Positions 3,513-47,525 of a DNA stretch of 64,000 nt are shown piece after piece. The DNA comes from an uncultured Flavobacteriaceae bacterium. Lineage in GTDB: Bacteria > Bacteroidota > Bacteroidia > Flavobacteriales > Flavobacteriaceae. The DNA lies in NCBI GenBank assembly GCA_947500575.1, contig CANMSI010000005.1, positions 124,001-188,000 on the forward strand, read 5' to 3'. A program made the position numbers and the translations under genes. Positions within the stretch are counted from its first letter, which is position 1, and every line of letters begins with the position of its first letter. Below the pieces are notes generated by a model. It saw only the letters and a list, made by a program, of their open reading frames with translations. It ran no database searches and had not been told where the DNA came from.

Positions 3513-4724
3513 ATGCTAGAGAAAAAGGAAATTGCTTATGAAAAAACCGTACTCATCGGGGTTATTAATAAAGAGCAGAATGAAGAGAAGGTAAGAGAGT
3601 ACTTAGATGAGCTAGAATTCCTCACGTACACAGCTGGGGGAGAGGTATGTAAACGTTTTGTACAGCGGATACAACTTCCCAACCCCAAGACCTATATAGG
3701 TAGTGGTAAAATGAAAGAGGTAGAGTCGTATGTAGAGGAACATAAGATTAGTTCTGTTATTTTTGATGACGAACTAAGTCCGGCACAACAGAGAAATATT
3801 GAAAAACAACTTCGTTGTAAAATTCTAGATAGAACAAGTCTTATTCTAGATATTTTCGCGCAACGAGCGCAAACAAGCTATGCTAGAACACAGGTAGAGC
3901 TTGCGCAGTACGAATATTTGTTACCTCGTTTAACTGGACTTTGGACCCACTTAGAAAGACAAAAAGGAGGTATTGGAATGCGGGGGCCAGGAGAAACGGA
4001 AATTGAAACAGATAGACGAATTGTGAGAGACCGTATTTCTTTGCTAAAAAAGAAACTTGCCAAAATTGATAGGCAAATGGGAACCCAACGTGGTAATAGG
4101 GGGTCTCTTGTTAGGGTTGCCCTCGTTGGTTATACCAATGTGGGAAAATCTACTTTGATGAACGTAGTGAGCAAAAGTGATGTTTTCGCAGAAAATAAAT
4201 TGTTTGCTACTTTAGATACTACCGTAAGAAAAGTAGTGATTGGCAATTTGCCATTCTTGCTGAGTGACACCGTAGGCTTTATTAGAAAATTACCTACCCA
4301 ACTCGTAGAGAGTTTTAAAAGCACGTTGGATGAAGTACGAGAAGCAGATCTTTTACTTCATGTAGTAGACATCTCGCATCCCAATTTTGAAGAACATATA
4401 GATTCTGTTCACAAGATTCTAGATGAGATTAAAAGCCGAGATAAAAAAACAATTATGATCTTCAATAAAATTGATCAATATACTCATGAAACCATTGAAG
4501 AAGATGATTTGATTACGGAAAAGACCCATAAACATTTCACTATTGCCGAATGGAAGAAAACATGGATGCAGCGAGTTGGTGACCGAGCTATTTTTATTTC
4601 AGCACTTAACAAAGAGAACTTAGACGAGTTTAGAAAAAGAGTATATGACGAGGTAAGAGACATTTATGTAACTAGATTTCCTTATAATAACTTCCTATAT
4701 CCAGAACACCTAGATCAATATTAG
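3513..4724 (+). CDS. hflX: GTPase HflX
   Basis: 403 residues, a usual length for HflX. The N-terminal HflX domain (about 1-200) includes the glycine-rich GGIGMRGPGETEIETD segment. The G domain has G1 GYTNVGKST (206-214), G3 DTVGF, the HflX-type switch with LPTQLVESFKSTLDEV, and G4 NKID. HflX binds the 50S ribosomal subunit and splits stalled or heat-stressed 70S ribosomes. It is transcribed divergently from the EEP gene with an 80-bp gap. TAGATTTG at 3487-3494 is a plausible -7 box. Downstream lies the first small-RNA-like unit. Confidence 0.95.
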   Translation: MLEKKEIAYEKTVLIGVINKEQNEEKVREYLDELEFLTYTAGGEVCKRFVQRIQLPNPKTYIGSGKMKEVESYVEEHKISSVIFDDELSPAQQRNIEKQLRCKILDRTSLILDIFAQRAQTSYARTQVELAQYEYLLPRLTGLWTHLERQKGGIGMRGPGETEIETDRRIVRDRISLLKKKLAKIDRQMGTQRGNRGSLVRVALVGYTNVGKSTLMNVVSKSDVFAENKLFATLDTTVRKVVIGNLPFLLSDTVGFIRKLPTQLVESFKSTLDEVREADLLLHVVDISHPNFEEHIDSVHKILDEIKSRDKKTIMIFNKIDQYTHETIEEDDLITEKTHKHFTIAEWKKTWMQRVGDRAIFISALNKENLDEFRKRVYDEVRDIYVTRFPYNNFLYPEHLDQY

Positions 4725-4752
4725 TGGTTCATTTTAAGAATAAAATTGACCA

Positions 4753-4848
4753 TTCATCGGGAAAATCATACCTGTTAAAATTTTCACAACACTTTAAAGA
4801 AGGTTCACAACAAAAATTTAGTCGCAAGGGAAGATCATTATATCTTTA
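4753..4848 (+). promoter_or_regulatory. Promoter/upstream region of RNA unit A
   Basis: Elements in order: TTCATCG (4753), ACAACA (4807), a TTTA -33-like box (4817-4820), 20 bp, then TATCTTTA (4841-4848) as the -7 box. ACAACA starts exactly 34 bp before the -7 box, as in units B and C, and the TTC(A/G)TCG box lies 54 bp before ACAACA (53 bp in B and C). Conserved spacing in three otherwise diverged copies argues for function. Confidence 0.6.
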
Positions 4849-4853
4849 CAGTG

Positions 4854-5021
4854 TAATTAAGTAATTGTGTTGTCCCCAAATCAATTCTATTACTTGATTC
4901 AATAGAAGTTCGAACCCAAATCGACTCTTAACCAAAGTATTAAAATTAAAGAATACCAAACCAAATTTTACGAAAAACCTACTTTACTAAAATAACCCTG
5001 ACAGAACTGTCAGGGTTTTTT
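4854..5021 (+). ncRNA. Candidate small RNA, family copy A
   Basis: No ORF lies in this stretch between hflX and the convergent coiled-coil gene. After the -7 box the RNA would start near 4854. A 9-bp stem with one G-U pair (4857-4865 with 4889-4897) carries CCCCAAAT (4874-4881) in its apical part. A second hairpin TCGA-ACCCAAA-TCGA (4910-4924) repeats the loop theme. ACCTACTTTACTAAAA precedes a strong terminator at 4995-5021 (CCCTGACA stem with T run). Copies B and C share the promoter, the TAATTAAGT start, the loops and the CCTACTT tail, but not the stem sequences. It could belong to a described Bacteroidota family such as Flavo-1; I cannot check that here. Confidence 0.6.
4995..5021 (+). 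terminator. Rho-independent terminator of RNA unit A
   Basis: ACCCTGACA-gaac-TGTCAGGGT followed by TTTTTT: a perfect 9-bp stem, tetraloop and T run. It ends RNA unit A and sits 40 bp from the stop codon of the convergent gene at 5061. Confidence 0.85.
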
Positions 5022-5060
5022 ATTTGTCACAAATTCAATGTTTCCTTTTTAGATAAGGTA

Positions 5061-5660
5061 TTATCTATTCCCAGCTTTGCGCTTCGCTTCTCTTTCCAAG
5101 CGTTCAGCTTCTCGCTTTAATCTTTCGGCTTCTCTTTTTAAACGATCGGCTTCCCTTAACTTTCTGTCTGCTTCTCTTTTTAACCGTTCCTTGTCTCGTT
5201 TTTCATTAGAACCCGAAGTGTAATTTTTAATGTTTTTTCCGATCGTCTTCATTTTGTTTTCGATTCCTGAAGAGGCCAGTTCTTTATCAACATCAATTCG
5301 AAGACTTCCCTTATCCAAACGAACTTCATACGCAATATCTCCATCATATGTATATTCCCAAACATATTTGTTTCCCGAAATAACGAGGTTTTCTCGCCCA
5401 AGCTCTTCCATTAAATAACTCTTAATCTTGGAGCTTTTACCCTCATCAAATTTGGCCTTTATTTTAAAATCTTCATCAGAATCTGTAGTAGAGAAATAAG
5501 AATAGTTAGTATCATCTATATGAATAGAGGTGCTACTCTTGTTTTTCTTTGAATGTTTTGAAGTGGTTGGGGTGGAAGGAGGAGTTGGTGGTTCACTTTG
5601 CCCATACATATTTGTTAAACTCATTAGGAGTATGCTTATGATATAAATAATTGTTTTCAT
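5061..5660 (-). CDS. Secreted protein with C-terminal heptad-repeat coiled coil (unknown function)
   Basis: 199 residues, not recognised. It has a signal peptide (MKTIIYIISILLMSLTNMYG), a Ser/Thr/Pro/Lys-rich linker (about 25-45), a compact middle region (about 50-150) and a C-terminal run of near-perfect heptads of the type LKREAER (about 158-196). The tail is highly charged and should form a single long helix or coiled coil in the periplasm. It starts 11 bp after the stop of the serine hydrolase, so it is very likely the last gene of the operon histidine kinase, response regulator, serine hydrolase, this protein. Confidence 0.75.
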   Translation of the reverse strand: MKTIIYIISILLMSLTNMYGQSEPPTPPSTPTTSKHSKKNKSSTSIHIDDTNYSYFSTTDSDEDFKIKAKFDEGKSSKIKSYLMEELGRENLVISGNKYVWEYTYDGDIAYEVRLDKGSLRIDVDKELASSGIENKMKTIGKNIKNYTSGSNEKRDKERLKREADRKLREADRLKREAERLKREAERLEREAKRKAGNR

Positions 5661-5671
5661 GATTTCGTTTT

Positions 5672-6895
5672 TTATGATTTTCTGTTTTTAAATTTTTCTT
5701 TTTGATAGGTTTTAATAGCATTCCAGCAAGCCTGCACATGTTTTGCCACACTAGGGTTATCTATCATATTGGTATTGGTAAAAAATATAACCCCAATTCC
5801 TTTCTCTTTGTAGTAGTACATCATAGTGAAAATACCTGGATCCCCGCCATTATGCCCTAAAATTCCCGGCTTATTAGATTCCCAAAAAAAGCCATAGTTA
5901 TCATCCAAATCTTCCGTGGGTCCATACTGTTCTTTGGTAACTTGGCCGGTCATCATTTCCTGAATAAGACTAGATTTTACAATTGTATTGTCTCCTTCAT
6001 ACCCACGAATCATAGCCTGCATATACTGAGTTAAAGAACCTATACTAGTTCGTAAACCTCCATCTGGATAGGTTATCAAAGAATAAGCTGGTAATGCTAT
6101 CTTTTCTTTGGTATATACTTTTGCATGCTTTTCTCTTTCAATTGCATCGAAGGACCATCCCGTATCTTTCATTCCAATCTTATCAAAAATATACTGCTGG
6201 GTAAATGCGGCAAATGACATTCCAGAAGTAACTTCTATACAATGAGCCGCTAAGGCAGATGCAATATTGGAGTATTCATACTGGGCTCCCGGTGCAGTTT
6301 TTAAAAAGTTCTTTTTATGATAGAATGCTCCATTAGGCGTTAGGTACTTTTCCAAATAATCTCCGAGTGCCATTCCCTTATTTTCCTGAATAGATTCTAT
6401 GTATTTGGCAATCTCTTTATTATATAATTGAGGTTGTATCTGCTCCGGGTCTTCCAAAACATAACTTTTATCATATCCTTTTCCCCAATCATAAATACCA
6501 GAGGTATGCGTCGCTAAATGCCTTACTGTAATGGGTATTTCTGGATACTTGGGGTGCACTACCTTAAATGGCAATATATCATTGACTTCCGTATCAATTT
6601 GGAGCTGACCTAACTCAACAGCTTTCATTAAAGAAACACCAATAAACGTTTTCGAAATAGACCCAATATTCTGAATGGTACTTGAAGTATATGGTTTTTT
6701 ATGCTCCTTGTCTGCATAGCCATACCCATTTTGAAATAAGACCTCTTCAGGTGAAAAAACAGATACTCCAAAGCCTACCAATCCCTCCTGAGCTGCAATA
6801 CTATCTAATTGGTAATTTAAAGTTTCCTCTGGGCTTTGCGCCCGTGCTATAATAGTCACTATGATGAGTAGTAACAAACTTGCTATTTTTTGCAT
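5672..6895 (-). CDS. Serine hydrolase, beta-lactamase/class C (AmpC-like) family
   Basis: 407 residues with a signal peptide (MQKIASLLLLIIVTIIARAQ). The penicillin-recognising fold motifs are present: SISK (79-82, nucleophile Ser79 and Lys82), YSN in YEYSNIASAL, and HNGG in GHNGGDPG in place of KTG. The family (PF00144) includes D-aminopeptidases, esterases and peptidoglycan-active enzymes; a true beta-lactamase is only one possibility. It lies 28 bp after a response-regulator gene and 11 bp before the coiled-coil gene, so envelope-related control by the neighbouring two-component system is a reasonable inference. Confidence 0.88.
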   Translation of the reverse strand: MQKIASLLLLIIVTIIARAQSPEETLNYQLDSIAAQEGLVGFGVSVFSPEEVLFQNGYGYADKEHKKPYTSSTIQNIGSISKTFIGVSLMKAVELGQLQIDTEVNDILPFKVVHPKYPEIPITVRHLATHTSGIYDWGKGYDKSYVLEDPEQIQPQLYNKEIAKYIESIQENKGMALGDYLEKYLTPNGAFYHKKNFLKTAPGAQYEYSNIASALAAHCIEVTSGMSFAAFTQQYIFDKIGMKDTGWSFDAIEREKHAKVYTKEKIALPAYSLITYPDGGLRTSIGSLTQYMQAMIRGYEGDNTIVKSSLIQEMMTGQVTKEQYGPTEDLDDNYGFFWESNKPGILGHNGGDPGIFTMMYYYKEKGIGVIFFTNTNMIDNPSVAKHVQACWNAIKTYQKEKFKNRKS

Positions 6896-6923
6896 AATTG
6901 TTGTTTTTGATGATGAATAAACT

Positions 6924-7616
6924 CTATTTACTTCCTATATCAATTTTAAAGGTTAGTCCCAAACCCCGCACACTTTCAATGGTTATGCTAGGATCTTGTT
7001 TAAAATACTTTCGCAATCTGCTAATAAATACGTCCATACTTCTTCCTGAGAAAAAGTCGTCGTTGCCCCAAACGTCTTTGAGGAGATCATCGCGTTTTAT
7101 GATATTATTTCTATGGGTATACAAGTATTGAATTAGCATTGTTTCCTTTTCGGTTAAGCGTTGCTCCACTTCATTAAAGTGCAACAATTGTTTGCTAGCA
7201 TCAAACTTATAATTCCCTATAGTCTCTATTTGTGCTTTGGTAACTTGTACTTTTTGAGTGCGTTTTAAAATATTTTTTAATCGCAATACCAAGATATCTG
7301 CTTCAAAAGGCTTTACGATATAATCATCCGCTCCAAGCTTTAAACCAATAATTCTATCTTCCTTTAATTTTTTGGCTGTCAGAAATACAAAAGGAACCTC
7401 CGGATTCATATTGATTACCTTTTCTGCCAACGTAAACCCATCCATCTTAGGCATCATTACATCAAAAACACAAATATCAAAATCATCCTTTTTAAAAATA
7501 TTTAAAGCTTCTTTCCCATCTTGGGCCCAGGTAACATTAAAGCTATGAATCTCTAAATACTGCTTTAGAATACTTCCAAAATCAAAGTCGTCTTCTGCTA
7601 ATAAAACTCGTGTCAT
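6924..7616 (-). CDS. OmpR/PhoB-family response regulator (RprY-like)
   Basis: 230 residues. The receiver domain (1-120) has the acidic pair in LLAEDD (8-10), phospho-acceptor Asp52 in VFDVMMPKMDG and Lys102 in IVKPF. The winged-helix output domain (about 135-228) contains LTEKETMLIQYL and the recognition-helix region SMDVFISRLRKYF. It is separated by 4 bp from the kinase gene upstream. Its architecture matches RprY, the partner of RprX in Bacteroides, but orthology is an inference. A hexamer direct repeat with 11-bp period ahead of the kinase gene (9096-9112) may be its own binding site. Confidence 0.92.
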   Translation of the reverse strand: MTRVLLAEDDFDFGSILKQYLEIHSFNVTWAQDGKEALNIFKKDDFDICVFDVMMPKMDGFTLAEKVINMNPEVPFVFLTAKKLKEDRIIGLKLGADDYIVKPFEADILVLRLKNILKRTQKVQVTKAQIETIGNYKFDASKQLLHFNEVEQRLTEKETMLIQYLYTHRNNIIKRDDLLKDVWGNDDFFSGRSMDVFISRLRKYFKQDPSITIESVRGLGLTFKIDIGSK

Positions 7617-7620
7617 GTTC

Positions 7621-9021
7621 TTAGTTTACAGGTATTATGATGCTAAATGCTGTCCCTTTATGTAACTCGCTCTGAAGGCTTATTTCTCCGCTATGAGCAT
7701 CAATTACTTGTTTGGTGTAGTACAGCCCTAGTCCCAGCCCTTTTACGTTATGCACATTGCCCGAGGTAACTCGATAAAATTTATCAAAAATTACTTCCTT
7801 ATTTTTTTCCGAAATTCCAATTCCATTGTCGGAAATATCAATTTGATATTGATTGTTCTTTAGTTGTGTTTGTACTTTAATTGCAACCGTTTCCTTTCCA
7901 TATTTTACAGCATTCTCCAAGATGTTCAATAATGCAGTTGTAAATAAAAAGCGATCTATTCGAAGCATCACTTCTTTTGGTTCTATCTCTAGGGCAATGT
8001 TTAGATCTTTGCTTTGAACAGAAAGTGAAAAATCCGATACAATATTTTTGAAGTATACATCATCTACTAGCTGTTCTTTATGCAGCACCAAATCTTCAGA
8101 ACCTAAACTATTGGTCATTACTTGGTCTATCAATTTTTGAAGTCTACTATTCTGACGTTCTACAATTCCCAAGGTATTTTCAAAAGCCTCTGGAGCTTCT
8201 ACTATTTCTTGTTTTTTTAAACTCTTTGTTGCAATGGCCAATGTGGCCAAAGGTGTTTTAAGTTCGTGAGTGATATTATTGATGAAGTCTGTTTTAACGT
8301 CCGCTACTTTTTTTTGTTTTATTAGATTGCTTATGGAATAATAAAAAAGTCCTACTACAAACAATAGTAATAAAATAGATCCCACAAGAATTGTAACCAT
8401 TCTGCCTAGCACAATTCGCTTCCACTCAGAAATATTCATTCTATCTTGGGTGTCCACTCTAAACTCAAATTCTACATCTCTAGGTTCTCCTCCATACAGT
8501 CTGCTTTCTTCTTGGTAATTGGATTGCCAACGAGCATTGCTAATTCTATATCCGGTGGCGTCATCAAAATTCTCGCCCACCAGAAAAACGGGTTTGTTTT
8601 CTTTCAATGAATAAATCGTGTCGTTCTGTACGGAGTCTAGTAATATAATTCGATGAATGTTCTTTTTGTATTTTACATCGTAGCCCAATTCACTTTTAGC
8701 GAGCTGCTCTTTATACAAACGATTGTATTCTGCATTCGAAGAATCTGCAGTTTTGGTCAATTTAAAAATAAACTCTTCTTTAGATAATGACCCATATTTA
8801 TAATCTGCCAATAAGCCCATTAAACGCAAGCCCCATATTTCTTCGATATCATTTAAAGATGCTGTTTCATCATCTATCCTATTTATAACTTTCTTGGTTT
8901 CATTTAAAAAAGCATCTTTCTTTAACTCGTAGGTATTATATATAAGGTAGGCTTGTATGCTTATTAACCCCAGCAGTGTAATAATGGCAGTGCCGATAAG
9001 GATGTTTATTTTTTGTTGCAT
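7621..9021 (-). CDS. Membrane sensor histidine kinase (RprX-like)
   Basis: 466 residues. TM1 is at about 7-28, followed by a periplasmic sensor region of about 175 residues without a recognised domain and TM2 at about 207-229. The HisKA domain has the phospho-acceptor His252 in NNITHELKTPLATL. The HATPase domain shows the N box NILENAVKYG, G1 DNGIGI and G2 GLGLGLYY. It forms an operon with the response regulator (4-bp gap). A possible minus-strand promoter has TACTTTTG (9058-9051) with TTTG about 24 bp upstream, slightly longer than usual. Confidence 0.92.
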   Translation of the reverse strand: MQQKINILIGTAIITLLGLISIQAYLIYNTYELKKDAFLNETKKVINRIDDETASLNDIEEIWGLRLMGLLADYKYGSLSKEEFIFKLTKTADSSNAEYNRLYKEQLAKSELGYDVKYKKNIHRIILLDSVQNDTIYSLKENKPVFLVGENFDDATGYRISNARWQSNYQEESRLYGGEPRDVEFEFRVDTQDRMNISEWKRIVLGRMVTILVGSILLLLFVVGLFYYSISNLIKQKKVADVKTDFINNITHELKTPLATLAIATKSLKKQEIVEAPEAFENTLGIVERQNSRLQKLIDQVMTNSLGSEDLVLHKEQLVDDVYFKNIVSDFSLSVQSKDLNIALEIEPKEVMLRIDRFLFTTALLNILENAVKYGKETVAIKVQTQLKNNQYQIDISDNGIGISEKNKEVIFDKFYRVTSGNVHNVKGLGLGLYYTKQVIDAHSGEISLQSELHKGTAFSIIIPVN

Positions 9022-9095
9022 AAGGCTTTATTTCTATTGCTTCAACAATTCAAAAGTAGCGCAAAACTGATATTCTGAATAACAAATGGTATCCA

Positions 9096-9112
9096 TTAAC
9101 CCACCGTTAACC
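9096..9112 (-). promoter_or_regulatory. TTAACC direct repeat, candidate response-regulator site
   Basis: TTAACC at 9096-9101 and 9107-9112 (GGTTAA on the gene strand) repeat with an 11-bp period. OmpR/PhoB-family regulators typically bind direct hexamers or heptamers spaced 11 bp apart. The site lies about 10 bp upstream of the possible -33 box of the histidine-kinase gene, where an autoregulatory site would be expected. Confidence 0.35.
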
Positions 9113-9266
9113 TTCATCTTTCTCTAAGCTACCATCTTTAAAGGCATAAGTAGTCTATGTTAATACTAGCTGCAATGCGCTTTTTACCTTATTAACAATG
9201 CTTTATTAGGAATGGAAATAGTCTTGATAAGGAGAAATGAAGCAAAGATGGTCTAAATTAATGTTG

Positions 9267-9361
9267 TTCGTCGATCAAATCCTACCGTTTAAATTTACAC
9301 CACATTTTACACTAAGTTGACAACATAAATTTAGTAAACAGCTAAACTGCTCCTATCTTTG
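9267..9361 (+). promoter_or_regulatory. Promoter/upstream region of RNA unit B
   Basis: TTCGTCGATCAAAT (9267), ACAACA (9320-9325), TTTAG -33-like box (9330-9334) and TATCTTTG (9354-9361), a full match to TAnnTTTG. The TTC-to-ACAACA distance is 53 bp and ACAACA to the -7 box is 34 bp, as in unit C. Confidence 0.65.
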
Positions 9362-9366
9362 TAGTG

Positions 9367-9532
9367 TAATTAAGTGATAGTGTTTAACCCCAAATTGAAC
9401 ATTAACTTAGCCTCAAAAAAAAAGGATTTCCCAAAGTCCTTAGAACAAAACCTACTTAGCTAATAGTTTAATTACAACCAAATTTACAAGACCTACTTTA
9501 CTAAAAAAGTCCTCTTTCTGGAGGACTTTTTT
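9367..9532 (+). ncRNA. Candidate small RNA, family copy B
   Basis: A predicted transcript of about 166 nt. TTAAGT (9370-9375) pairs with ACTTA (9405-9409), and an inner GTTT/GAAC stem encloses CCCCAAAT (9388-9395). A second hairpin AAGGA/TCCTT (9422-9441) has the loop TTTCCCAAAG. The tail has two CCTACTT boxes (near 9460 and 9491), the second as ACCTACTTTACTAAAA just before the terminator. There are no ATG-started reading frames of note. Stem changes relative to copy C are compensatory (AAGGA/TCCTT versus GGGAC/GTCCC), the best sequence-only sign that the structure matters. Confidence 0.65.
9503..9532 (+). terminator. Rho-independent terminator of RNA unit B
   Basis: AGTCCTC-tttctg-GAGGACT flanked by A6 and T6. 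The stem is unrelated in sequence to those of units A and C. Confidence 0.85.
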
Positions 9533-9591
9533 AGTATATGACAATTTCAAAATTGTATTTCTTTGTTTTTAATTGTTAAAGAATACTGCAG

Positions 9592-9686
9592 TTCATCGAA
9601 CAAATTATGTCTTTTAAATTTACACCACATTATAGGTTGAATTGACAACATAAATTTAGCAGATAGACATTCTAATTCTATCTTTA
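9592..9686 (+). promoter_or_regulatory. Promoter/upstream region of RNA unit C
   Basis: TTCATCGAACAAAT (9592), ACAACA (9645-9650), TTTAG -33-like box and TATCTTTA (9679-9686). Spacings are 53 bp and 34 bp, as in unit B. Confidence 0.65.
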
Positions 9687-9691
9687 CATTG

Positions 9692-9823
9692 TAATTAAGT
9701 GATAGCGTTTAACCCCAAATTAAACAATGACTTAACCTCAAAAAAATTTGGGACTCCCCAAAGTCCCTCATAGATTAACCTACTTAACTAAAAAAGCCCC
9801 GACATAAATGCCGGGGCTTTTTT
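9692..9823 (+). ncRNA. Candidate small RNA, family copy C
   Basis: A predicted transcript of about 132 nt, the shortest of the three. TTAAGT (9695-9700) pairs with ACTTAA (9730-9735), and an inner GTTT/AAAC stem encloses CCCCAAAT (9713-9720). The second hairpin GGGAC-TCCCCAAA-GTCCC (9750-9767) again exposes CCCCAAA, and TTTGGG just before it could pair with that loop as an alternative fold. ACCTACTTAACTAAAA leads into the terminator at 9790-9823. No coding frame is present. Confidence 0.65.
9790..9823 (+). terminator. Rho-independent terminator of RNA unit C
   Basis: AAGCCCCG, loop, CGGGGCTT followed by a T run. It faces the stop codon of the convergent DUF3078 gene 20 bp further on and may serve both directions. 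Confidence 0.85.
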
Positions 9824-9842
9824 GTTGTTCCCTTTAAACTTC

Positions 9843-10778
9843 TTAAAAAGCGTAATTAAGACCTAAAAGCCAATAGCTTTGTAAATCGTTATCTAAATTA
9901 TCAAAAGTAGGAGGGTTTGGATCTCCTACCACAAAATTATTGGTAGCAAAATTAAGCGCCTCTTGCCTGTTATTTCTTAGACCAAATTCAAATCCTACTC
10001 CTATCTTACTAAATAAGGTATATCCAAAAGAGTTAATCCATGTCCAGTTACTTAAGTCAGAGCTTTCATAACTTTGAAAAGCAGATAAGTTAGATTTAAA
10101 ATTAATTTTTCCAACCTGTCTTGTATAATCAGCTACAATTTTAGCACCTAACGAAGAATTAAAAATAGCGTCGTTGTCTGCAAATACAAAGTTGTAGTTC
10201 AATGGGTGTATTACTACCACCAAATCTGTTAGAGGAGTCCAAGTAAAACCAACCCCTAAATCCAAGTAACCAGGATCATTAAAATTATTAAGAATGGTTG
10301 TTCTGTATTCTCCTAATGCAGAAACCGCCCATTTTTCACTTAGCTTTCTTCCGTACAAAGAGGTAATACTAAAAACATCTGTTGCTTGTTGAAAGCTATC
10401 ATCGTCTGTAGGATCGTCTTCATTATCAAATTTAATCCAAGCAAGATTTACATTTAAAGAGTTTCTCCAGAAAAACTTCTCCTGCTTTAAATTGGCAAAT
10501 CCGTTTACAGTAATACCAATGTTCCCCGTTGAGTTGTTGGGAGTTCCTTGCGCAAACCAATTGTTAAAGCCAGAAATGTTTCCTCCAATAGTACCAAAAG
10601 CTCCTGTTTTCCATCCAGGTAAGGCATCTATCTGGCCCTGCAGTGCGTCTACTCTTCCTTGAATGGCAGCAATGGAATCTTTTTTAGCTCCTTGAGCTGC
10701 TTTCAATTCCTCTTCTGTTTGAGCATAACATAATGTCATCATTAATAGTGATGCCATTGTTAAAAATACTTTTTTCAT
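9843..10778 (-). CDS. DUF3078 family outer-membrane protein
   Basis: 311 residues with a signal peptide (MKKVFLTMASLLMMTLCYA). A short coiled segment (about 25-52) is followed by GWKTGAFGTIGGNISGFNNW and alternating aromatic/polar strands ending in Phe (LGLNYAF), typical of an outer-membrane beta-barrel. The pattern matches DUF3078 proteins of Bacteroidota, whose function is unknown. It is the last gene in line behind the suf group and DUF2480 on the same strand, 99 bp after DUF2480, so it may have its own promoter. Confidence 0.8.
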   Translation of the reverse strand: MKKVFLTMASLLMMTLCYAQTEEELKAAQGAKKDSIAAIQGRVDALQGQIDALPGWKTGAFGTIGGNISGFNNWFAQGTPNNSTGNIGITVNGFANLKQEKFFWRNSLNVNLAWIKFDNEDDPTDDDSFQQATDVFSITSLYGRKLSEKWAVSALGEYRTTILNNFNDPGYLDLGVGFTWTPLTDLVVVIHPLNYNFVFADNDAIFNSSLGAKIVADYTRQVGKINFKSNLSAFQSYESSDLSNWTWINSFGYTLFSKIGVGFEFGLRNNRQEALNFATNNFVVGDPNPPTFDNLDNDLQSYWLLGLNYAF

Positions 10779-47262: not shown

Positions 47263-47397
47263 TTATAACATAAAGAGCTTTCGTGTCAGCATCAAAATAC
47301 CACTATAAAAGTCGTTTCGATACACTTGAATTTCTTCTTTCGTTGCGTTGTTTTGGGCATCCATAGCTTTAGGTTTAGGTCTACAAAATTTGGACAT
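47263..47397 (-). CDS. Small conserved-looking protein (44 residues, or 33 from an inner start)
   Basis: From ATG 47397 the protein starts MSKFCRPKPKAMDAQ and continues NNATKEEIQVYRNDFYSG to ILMLTRKLFML. An inner ATG at 47364 would give MDAQ... (33 residues). The hydrophobic-basic end and amphipathic helix look protein-like, and the unit has its own terminator (47213-47243) and a possible -7 box TACATTTA (47422-47415). No family is recognised. It may equally be a small-RNA gene with an accidental frame. Confidence 0.45.
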   Translation of the reverse strand: MSKFCRPKPKAMDAQNNATKEEIQVYRNDFYSGILMLTRKLFML

Positions 47398-47525
47398 TAT
47401 CGTTTGATACGATGTAAATGTAGTAGTTAAACGAAAAAAGCTGAAATTATTGTTGTAAAGTGTCAACAAAGTGTTGTGAAAAATAGGAACAACTCCTTTT
47501 TTCGATGAAATGCAGGTATAAAATG

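Follow-up and report, generated by a model that had tools for sequence, protein, structure and literature searches.

Three intergenic units (A, B, and C) within a 64,000-nt stretch from an uncultured Flavobacteriaceae bacterium (GenBank assembly GCA_947500575.1, contig CANMSI010000005.1, positions 124,001 to 188,000; this whole stretch is the window) almost certainly belong to a real family of small RNAs (sRNAs). These sRNAs are very likely controlled, through a direct repeat upstream of each promoter, by a response regulator with a LytTR domain that is encoded elsewhere in the genome (C2:137236-137922). Our favored explanation, which we consider reasonably likely, is that A, B, and C are multicopy trans-acting sRNAs that are activated by the LytTR regulator and that pair with mRNAs. 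Each unit would be transcribed from its own promoter to an intrinsic terminator; the regulator would bind TTCACAACA-N12-TTCACAACA and activate transcription; and C-rich loops and/or the CCUACUU stretch of the RNA would pair with G-rich sites in mRNAs, with the copies being redundant. Transcription of the units and binding of the regulator are predicted from sequence, and the base-pairing and its targets are the least certain part of the explanation. The units and their upstream elements are as follows:

4853..5022, + strand: sRNA unit A, predicted transcript; terminator at about 4992-5022
9366..9536, + strand: sRNA unit B, predicted transcript with two copies of CCTACTT; terminator at about 9505-9535
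9691..9823, + strand: sRNA unit C, predicted transcript; terminator at about 9793-9823
4817..4848, + strand: core promoter of A, with TTTAG (-33-like) and TATCTTTA (-7-like)
9330..9361, + strand: core promoter of B, with TTTAG (-33-like) and TATCTTTG (-7-like)
9655..9686, + strand: core promoter of C, with TTTAG (-33-like) and TATCTTTA (-7-like)
4782..4812, + strand: direct repeat TTTCACAACA-N12-TTCACAACA of unit A, proposed site for the LytTR regulator, 0 mismatches
9295..9325, + strand: direct repeat upstream of B, putative LytTR site, 2 mismatches
9620..9650, + strand: direct repeat upstream of C, putative LytTR site, 2 mismatches
4753..4759, + strand: distal box TTCATCG of unit A
9267..9273, + strand: distal box TTCGTCG of unit B
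9592..9598, + strand: distal box TTCATCG of unit C

A preliminary description of this locus had listed conserved blocks at fixed spacings, terminators whose stems differ from unit to unit, and the lack of any coding frame, and all of these hold. ACAACA lies at 4807 (A), 9320 (B), and 9645 (C), which is 54, 53, and 53 bp past TTC(A/G)TCG; TTTAG lies at 4817, 9330, and 9655; and TATCTTT lies at 4841, 9354, and 9679, which is 34 bp from ACAACA in all three units. TAATTAAGT is at 4854, 9367, and 9692, and CCTACTT is at 4978 (A), 9451 and 9492 (B), and 9779 (C). The terminator stems do differ among the three units, and each unit has stops in all six frames. The predicted RNAs in this genome are about 133-171 nt long. 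In unit A, ACAACA also occurs 21 bp farther upstream, at 4786, and the ACAACA box of the preliminary description thus forms the proximal half of a direct repeat; the corresponding distal half in B and C has ACACCACA in place of ACAACA. The repeat has a 9-12-9 bp layout (TTTCACMACA-N12-TTCACAACA), and in every unit 4 bp separate its end from TTTAG.

By searching 60 relatives with patterns, we obtained 12 seed units, of which three come from the window and the other nine from four further genomes. A search model built from these seeds spans 131 positions, from the -7-like box to CCTACTT. It matched 45 of 397 sampled Flavobacteriaceae genomes and 30 of 237 genera (E ≤ 0.01). In an order-wide sample, 5 of 246 genomes matched, and all five are Flavobacteriaceae. 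In the 4.2-Mb genome that contains the window, there were exactly three matches at E ≤ 1, which are A, B, and C. (Two pattern matches in this genome, with GATCTTT and CATCTTT boxes, lie outside these three and were dropped by eye.) Across all 45 positive genomes we collected 93 matches (E ≤ 0.1) in 66 stretches, with 1-5 copies per genome; these include the 12 seeds. Removing near-identical matches left 81 members, one of which is the mRNA of a small open reading frame (ORF).

The promoter arrangement is conserved across these 81 non-redundant members. With at most one mismatch per box, the proximal half-repeat is present at -37/-38 in all 81 members, the distal half-repeat at -58/-59 in 72, TTCRTCG near -88 in 73, and ATTTAG at a fixed offset in 58; in shuffled upstream regions, the corresponding counts are 1, 0, 1, and 6 of 81. 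These boxes lay outside the search model. The -7-like box (81 of 81) belongs to the model and hence provides no independent support. Single short blocks are unremarkable (CCTACTTWACTAA alone, with up to 3 mismatches, was found 56 times, versus a mean of 52.9 after shuffling), yet the ordered set recurs in relatives at the same offsets.

The predicted RNA comprises a 5' hairpin, a second hairpin, and an intrinsic terminator. The hairpin loops show CCCAA/CCCCAAAU, and the unpaired stretches are ACCUAC and CCUACUU(A/U)ACUAA. On the 12 seeds, RNAalifold recovered no more than the base of hairpin 1; we used instead an arm-swap test, which compares the folding of each hairpin's own arms to arms swapped between members. 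For hairpin 2, the mean is -5.64 kcal/mol with its own arms versus -3.05 when swapped (standard deviation [SD] 0.19, 60 swaps, n = 69 of 81). Hairpin 2 co-varies: the sequence changes and the pairing is kept. The result for hairpin 1 is weaker (-6.57 versus -5.80, SD 0.22, n = 74 of 81). Members without CCCAA at the expected place were omitted (7 for hairpin 1 and 12 for hairpin 2). In a MAFFT alignment, the stem of hairpin 2 did not stay in register. With terminators included, all three units fold far more stably than dinucleotide shuffles (z = -4.2 for A, -6.2 for B, and -5.7 for C). A terminator-like hairpin is present in 80 of 81 members (a count without a shuffled control), and CCTACYT is present in 63. 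There is no conserved frame: the longest ATG-to-stop frame in the predicted transcripts has a median of 0, and just 1 of the 81 has at least 30 codons. On sequence, then, the units have the features of trans-acting sRNAs: a free-standing predicted transcript, a promoter, an intrinsic terminator, and no conserved ORF.

The genomic position of the family is also conserved. In the window, its two conserved neighbors are:

3513..4724, + strand: hflX (named from its sequence), conserved upstream neighbor of the sRNA family
9843..10778, - strand: DUF3078 gene (PF11276), conserved convergent downstream neighbor

Of the 93 matches, 67 are no more than 1 kb from hflX or DUF3078; counted by genome, 43 of the 45 have at least one such copy (the exceptions are G142 and G311). 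In the window, the interval between hflX and DUF3078 holds four more genes, with A on one side and B and C on the other. From their sequences, we take two of these four to be an OmpR-type regulator and its kinase. One other locus (L115) has an insertion between hflX and DUF3078 that resembles this one but is not identical.

We considered whether the units might instead be small-protein mRNAs or the 5' leaders of neighboring genes. One of the 81 members (L119) is indeed the mRNA of a conserved ORF of 33-35 amino acids. However, every frame of A, B, and C is interrupted by stops, and 80 of the 81 members have the terminator-like hairpin. The next gene after A lies on the opposite strand, the next element after B is unit C, and the DUF3078 gene downstream of C is convergent with it, which means that none of the units is the leader of a gene. 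We consider this alternative very unlikely. A functionless dispersed repeat or mobile element, which the tandem copies and the several positions per genome might suggest, is hardly credible: there are just three copies in 4.2 Mb, the same neighbors recur across genera, the terminator stems differ, hairpin 2 co-varies, and the promoter spacing is kept. Overall, the proposal in the preliminary description that these are independent but related sRNAs is supported by their own promoters, the terminator-like hairpins, the co-variation in hairpin 2, the lack of a conserved frame, the presence of the family in 45 of 397 genomes, and the orientation of the neighboring genes.

The same description had suggested that the units might belong to a known family such as the Flavo-1 motif (RF01705), which is an RNA motif of Bacteroidota. 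This was not supported. No Rfam 15 family matched the window at its gathering score. Flavo-1 was absent from the 20 matches to positions 4740-9850 with E up to 5, and all 20 of these were below their own gathering scores. A search of the whole genome for Flavo-1 found none, but the controls gave no signal either, so that search is uninformative.

The exact promoter pattern was found in 84 stretches. The named genera among the 80 of these that were listed include Maribacter, Zobellia, Pseudozobellia, Muricauda/Allomuricauda/Flagellimonas, Eudoraea, and Euzebyella, along with many metagenome-assembled genomes (MAGs). Six stretches that are labeled Muricauda, Allomuricauda, Flagellimonas, or Algicola (L185, L189, L193, L209, L211, and L227) have the same promoter 54-58 bp from a match to hflX and 215-273 bp from a match to DUF3078. 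In these six, the promoter is followed by a short predicted RNA in which CTTAACCTACTT is kept before the terminator. They are likely diverged orthologues, by position, that escape the model; the count of 45 of 397 is therefore probably an underestimate. None of the 80 listed stretches is from a record named Flavobacterium. In the order-wide sample, genus g146 (13 of 25 rows listed) had no match to the family; g146 may be Flavobacterium.

The evidence for the regulator comes from its domains, its distribution, and the location of the repeat. The protein encoded at C2:137236-137922 contains the Pfam domains Response_reg and LytTR, and a HisKA_2 histidine kinase follows it. The regulator is present in 81 of the 397 Flavobacteriaceae genomes (E ≤ 1e-60, 55-100% identity). 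With at most one mismatch, the repeat is present in 80 of these 81 genomes, versus 14 of the 316 genomes without the regulator, which have at most 3 sites. All 45 genomes with an sRNA match contain the regulator, and none of the 316 genomes that lack it matched. Of the 16 genomes with complete lists of sites, 13 have a repeat downstream of the regulator gene, at a distance of 65-449 bp. (In a separate set of 26 hand-picked genomes, the distance was within 450 bp in 25; the 13 of 16 covers the complete lists.) In each of five loci with TPR kinases that we read (this genome, G206, G237, G280, and G194), a response regulator gene is upstream of the kinase and the repeat is in between. The three-way fit of repeat, sRNA, and regulator is what would be predicted for a regulator and its regulon.

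The layout of the repeat is similar to that of known LytTR sites. In a paper on LytTR regulators (PMC6193735), these sites are described as 9-bp direct repeats, mostly 12 bp apart, with low conservation of the half-sites, and they lie 4-11 bp upstream of the -35 box in operons of S. mutans or about 10 bp upstream of it more widely. The length and spacing of the repeat, and its place upstream of the -33-like box, match this geometry, and they fit a LytTR layout of 9-bp repeats with 11-13 bp between them. The same paper describes a LytTR Regulatory System that consists of a LytTR regulator and a membrane inhibitor protein. Our candidate differs from that system: it carries a receiver domain, and the gene after it encodes a HisKA_2 kinase.

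Alternatively, the sRNA family could be real but controlled by something else, for instance by the OmpR-type pair encoded between A and B, by a hybrid kinase of the AraC type, or by a different LytTR protein. These genomes are rich in two-component proteins; this genome contains a second match to the regulator, at 35% identity; kinases whose ends look AraC-type by eye adjoin sRNA copies in several genomes; and shared ancestry confounds the co-occurrence. Of these candidates, the OmpR-type pair is rejected: among the other loci (66 were examined), it recurs in just one (L115), while the promoter boxes are kept in the loci that lack it. More broadly, the repeat has LytTR-like geometry and in 13 of 16 genomes adjoins the gene of the LytTR regulator, which makes control by another regulator rather doubtful.

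The repeat also precedes other genes. With at most two mismatches, each of 25 sRNA-bearing genomes has 10-19 sites, while the reversed pattern has 0-2. Among 79 relatives, the counts are 12-15 in the six that carry the sRNA and 0-4 in the remaining 73. We read the genes that follow the repeat for part of the sites; some sites that are inside genes or far from a start are probably due to chance. A second family of short RNAs lies behind the same repeat, with TTTTCATTTTCAYATAGT, after which GTTCTCGTAAAAGAGC and a terminator usually come. This genome has four matches to it in three stretches (two in L160 and one each in L165 and L166), and it also occurs in L172, L257, L264, L276, L293, L295, and L299 (twice). 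None of six stretches tested had an Rfam match at the gathering score.

Small proteins are also encoded behind the repeat. The window contains one of them:

47263..47364, - strand: small ORF of 33 amino acids, MDAQNNATKEEIQVYRNDFYSGILMLTRKLFML (44 amino acids if an in-frame upstream Met is used), behind the same repeat
47451..47481, - strand: direct repeat upstream of this small ORF, 1 mismatch

This peptide is conserved at 33-35 amino acids (..EIQVYRNDFYSGIVMLTRKLFML) and ends in KLFML or nearly so; besides the window, it is found behind the repeat at L119, L168, L178, L184, L203, L229, L282, L296, and L303. Two copies were tested against Pfam, and no family was above the cut-off. A 56-amino-acid DUF6747 protein (PF20532) is preceded by the repeat at four loci (L161 by Pfam; L275, L287, and L300 by eye). 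Other genes behind the repeat encode secreted leucine-rich-repeat proteins (L167 was tested by Pfam), a sigma-70-region-2 protein (the start of L174 was tested, and the match was below the cut-off), a protein of 124-126 amino acids (Pfam on L162 gave nothing above the cut-off), a PAS-type protein (by eye), and a HisKA_2 kinase (the L160 copy, PF07568). The repeat also precedes a small ORF followed by a gene that, from its sequence, we take to be crcB.

How the sRNAs act is less certain than how they are controlled, and we lean only slightly toward base-pairing. The C-rich unpaired loops, the multicopy family, and the two-component system together suggest base-pairing in the style of the LhrC sRNAs. 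According to PMC5880928, LhrC1-5 of Listeria monocytogenes form a multicopy sRNA family that depends on a response regulator for its activation, which is how they resemble the scheme proposed here. These RNAs belong to a member of the Firmicutes. Their regulator, LisR, is of the OmpR type, and they have C-rich pairing loops.

The strongest rival is that the RNAs are decoys: the hairpins with CCCCAAAU loops, together with ACCUAC, would titrate a regulator of mRNAs with the same leader elements, either an RNA-binding protein or another RNA. In accord with this, one RNA carries two hairpins with similar loops. Also, a usable CCCAA is present in 13 of 16 distinct leaders of small ORFs behind the repeat, and in 12 of the 16, ACCTA/ACCCA lies no more than 30 nt from the start codon. 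However, the hairpin in the small-ORF leaders was not significant (native -2.28 versus swapped -1.63, SD 0.36, n = 13), and the common 5' sequence may merely stem from duplication of the promoter and start region. We consider the decoy explanation unlikely. A broader version of it is more speculative, and we doubt it: a clade-wide global LytTR regulon whose output is largely RNA and micro-proteins, comprising two seemingly unrelated multicopy sRNA families, the 33-35 amino acid peptide, and DUF6747, with the first sRNA family acting as a decoy for an RNA-binding factor, so that the circuit would resemble Gac/Rsm but be built from different parts. The first sRNA family and the leader of the peptide mRNA do have C-rich and ACCUA elements in common. 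Bacteroidota are not known to have a CsrA-type system.

Several observations weigh against our favored explanation of LytTR-activated, base-pairing sRNAs. First, no clear target emerged when the starts of 89 genes in the window and eight other stretches (about 105 kb of 4.2 Mb) were scanned for duplexes. The best summed duplex score was for the presumed crcB, which is itself behind a repeat; its duplex had z = -2.9 with B and -2.7 with C, uncorrected for 89 genes and three RNAs, and it was not among the best for A. The complement of the loop, GATTTGGGGTC, was more frequent than its reversed pattern in 17 of 18 genomes (G369 was the reverse, 0 versus 2), but the control contains a stop codon and many of the counts include the sRNAs, so no conclusion can be drawn from these counts. 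Second, RNAalifold on the 12 seeds identified just six pairs, all at the base of hairpin 1 and none with a two-sided change, and without the terminators, the folding is modest for A and B (z = -1.5 and -1.9; C was at -3.1). Third, the association with the regulator is imperfect. The repeat, at up to 2 mismatches, is not near the regulator gene in G249, G404, and G151; G365 contains the regulator but no repeat; and 36 of the 81 genomes with the regulator have no sRNA match. Shared ancestry is the chief weakness here: the regulator-bearing genomes probably form a single clade, and the repeat, the sRNA, and the regulator could be joint markers of this clade that have no functional link. From the named genera with the exact promoter, too, the motif, the sRNA, and the regulator may be co-inherited. 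Fourth, the site may be atypical. By eye, TTCACAACA seems to depart from the LytTR consensus; the distal ACCGTTCAT-like boxes of many members seem to fit that consensus. Also, the repeat is 4 bp from the -33-like box, versus the common distance of about 10 bp for LytTR sites (PMC6193735).

RNAs under two-component control are a known kind of regulator. RNAIII (under AgrA) and VR-RNA (under VirR) are LytTR-activated sRNAs with direct repeats just upstream of the -35 box; they are single, longer, and from Firmicutes, whereas the family described here is multicopy, is from Bacteroidota, and has a different half-site. CsrB, RsmY, and RsmZ are two-component-controlled RNAs with repeated loop motifs, and CsrB and RsmZ titrate CsrA; the loop motif here is different, and these RNAs would be the analogue for a decoy. 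Closer in taxonomy is Rfp18 of Flavobacterium psychrophilum: PMC9723704 describes an intergenic sRNA that is kept in the genus, has a strong predicted structure, and was proposed to pair with mRNAs, and whose deletion lowers two protease mRNAs. Our units share with Rfp18 an intergenic position and a Flavobacteriaceae host. Among the open-access papers listed by our literature searches, we found no account of the sRNA family, the motif, or the link to the regulator. The kind of system, a two-component-controlled sRNA family, is known, while the family, its promoter code, and the proposed link to the regulator appear to be new. To our knowledge, little is known about regulatory sRNAs of Bacteroidota outside of Bacteroides, and less about their regulators. 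For this family, the conserved location, the specific promoter code, a specific candidate for the regulator, and the co-regulated genes listed for cultured genera such as Zobellia and Maribacter make the circuit testable.

Finally, we noticed other features near the sRNA copies and the repeat words. Recurrent neighbors of the sRNA copies include genes that, from their sequences, we take to encode proteins like IleRS, acyl-ACP desaturase, and DJ-1/PfpI. In L032, L094, L095, L102, L103, L110, and L112, large sensor kinase genes and small secreted proteins are between or beside the sRNA copies; some of these kinases end in an AraC-type-like domain (by eye), and several are at the hflX-DUF3078 locus. 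In L254, from a MAG labeled Cyclobacteriaceae, TTCACAACA words are arrayed in both orientations, unlike the regulon sites. L170 and L177 are AT-rich intergenic regions with several words like ACAACA and TTGTTAA, which might be related to replication or due to chance.

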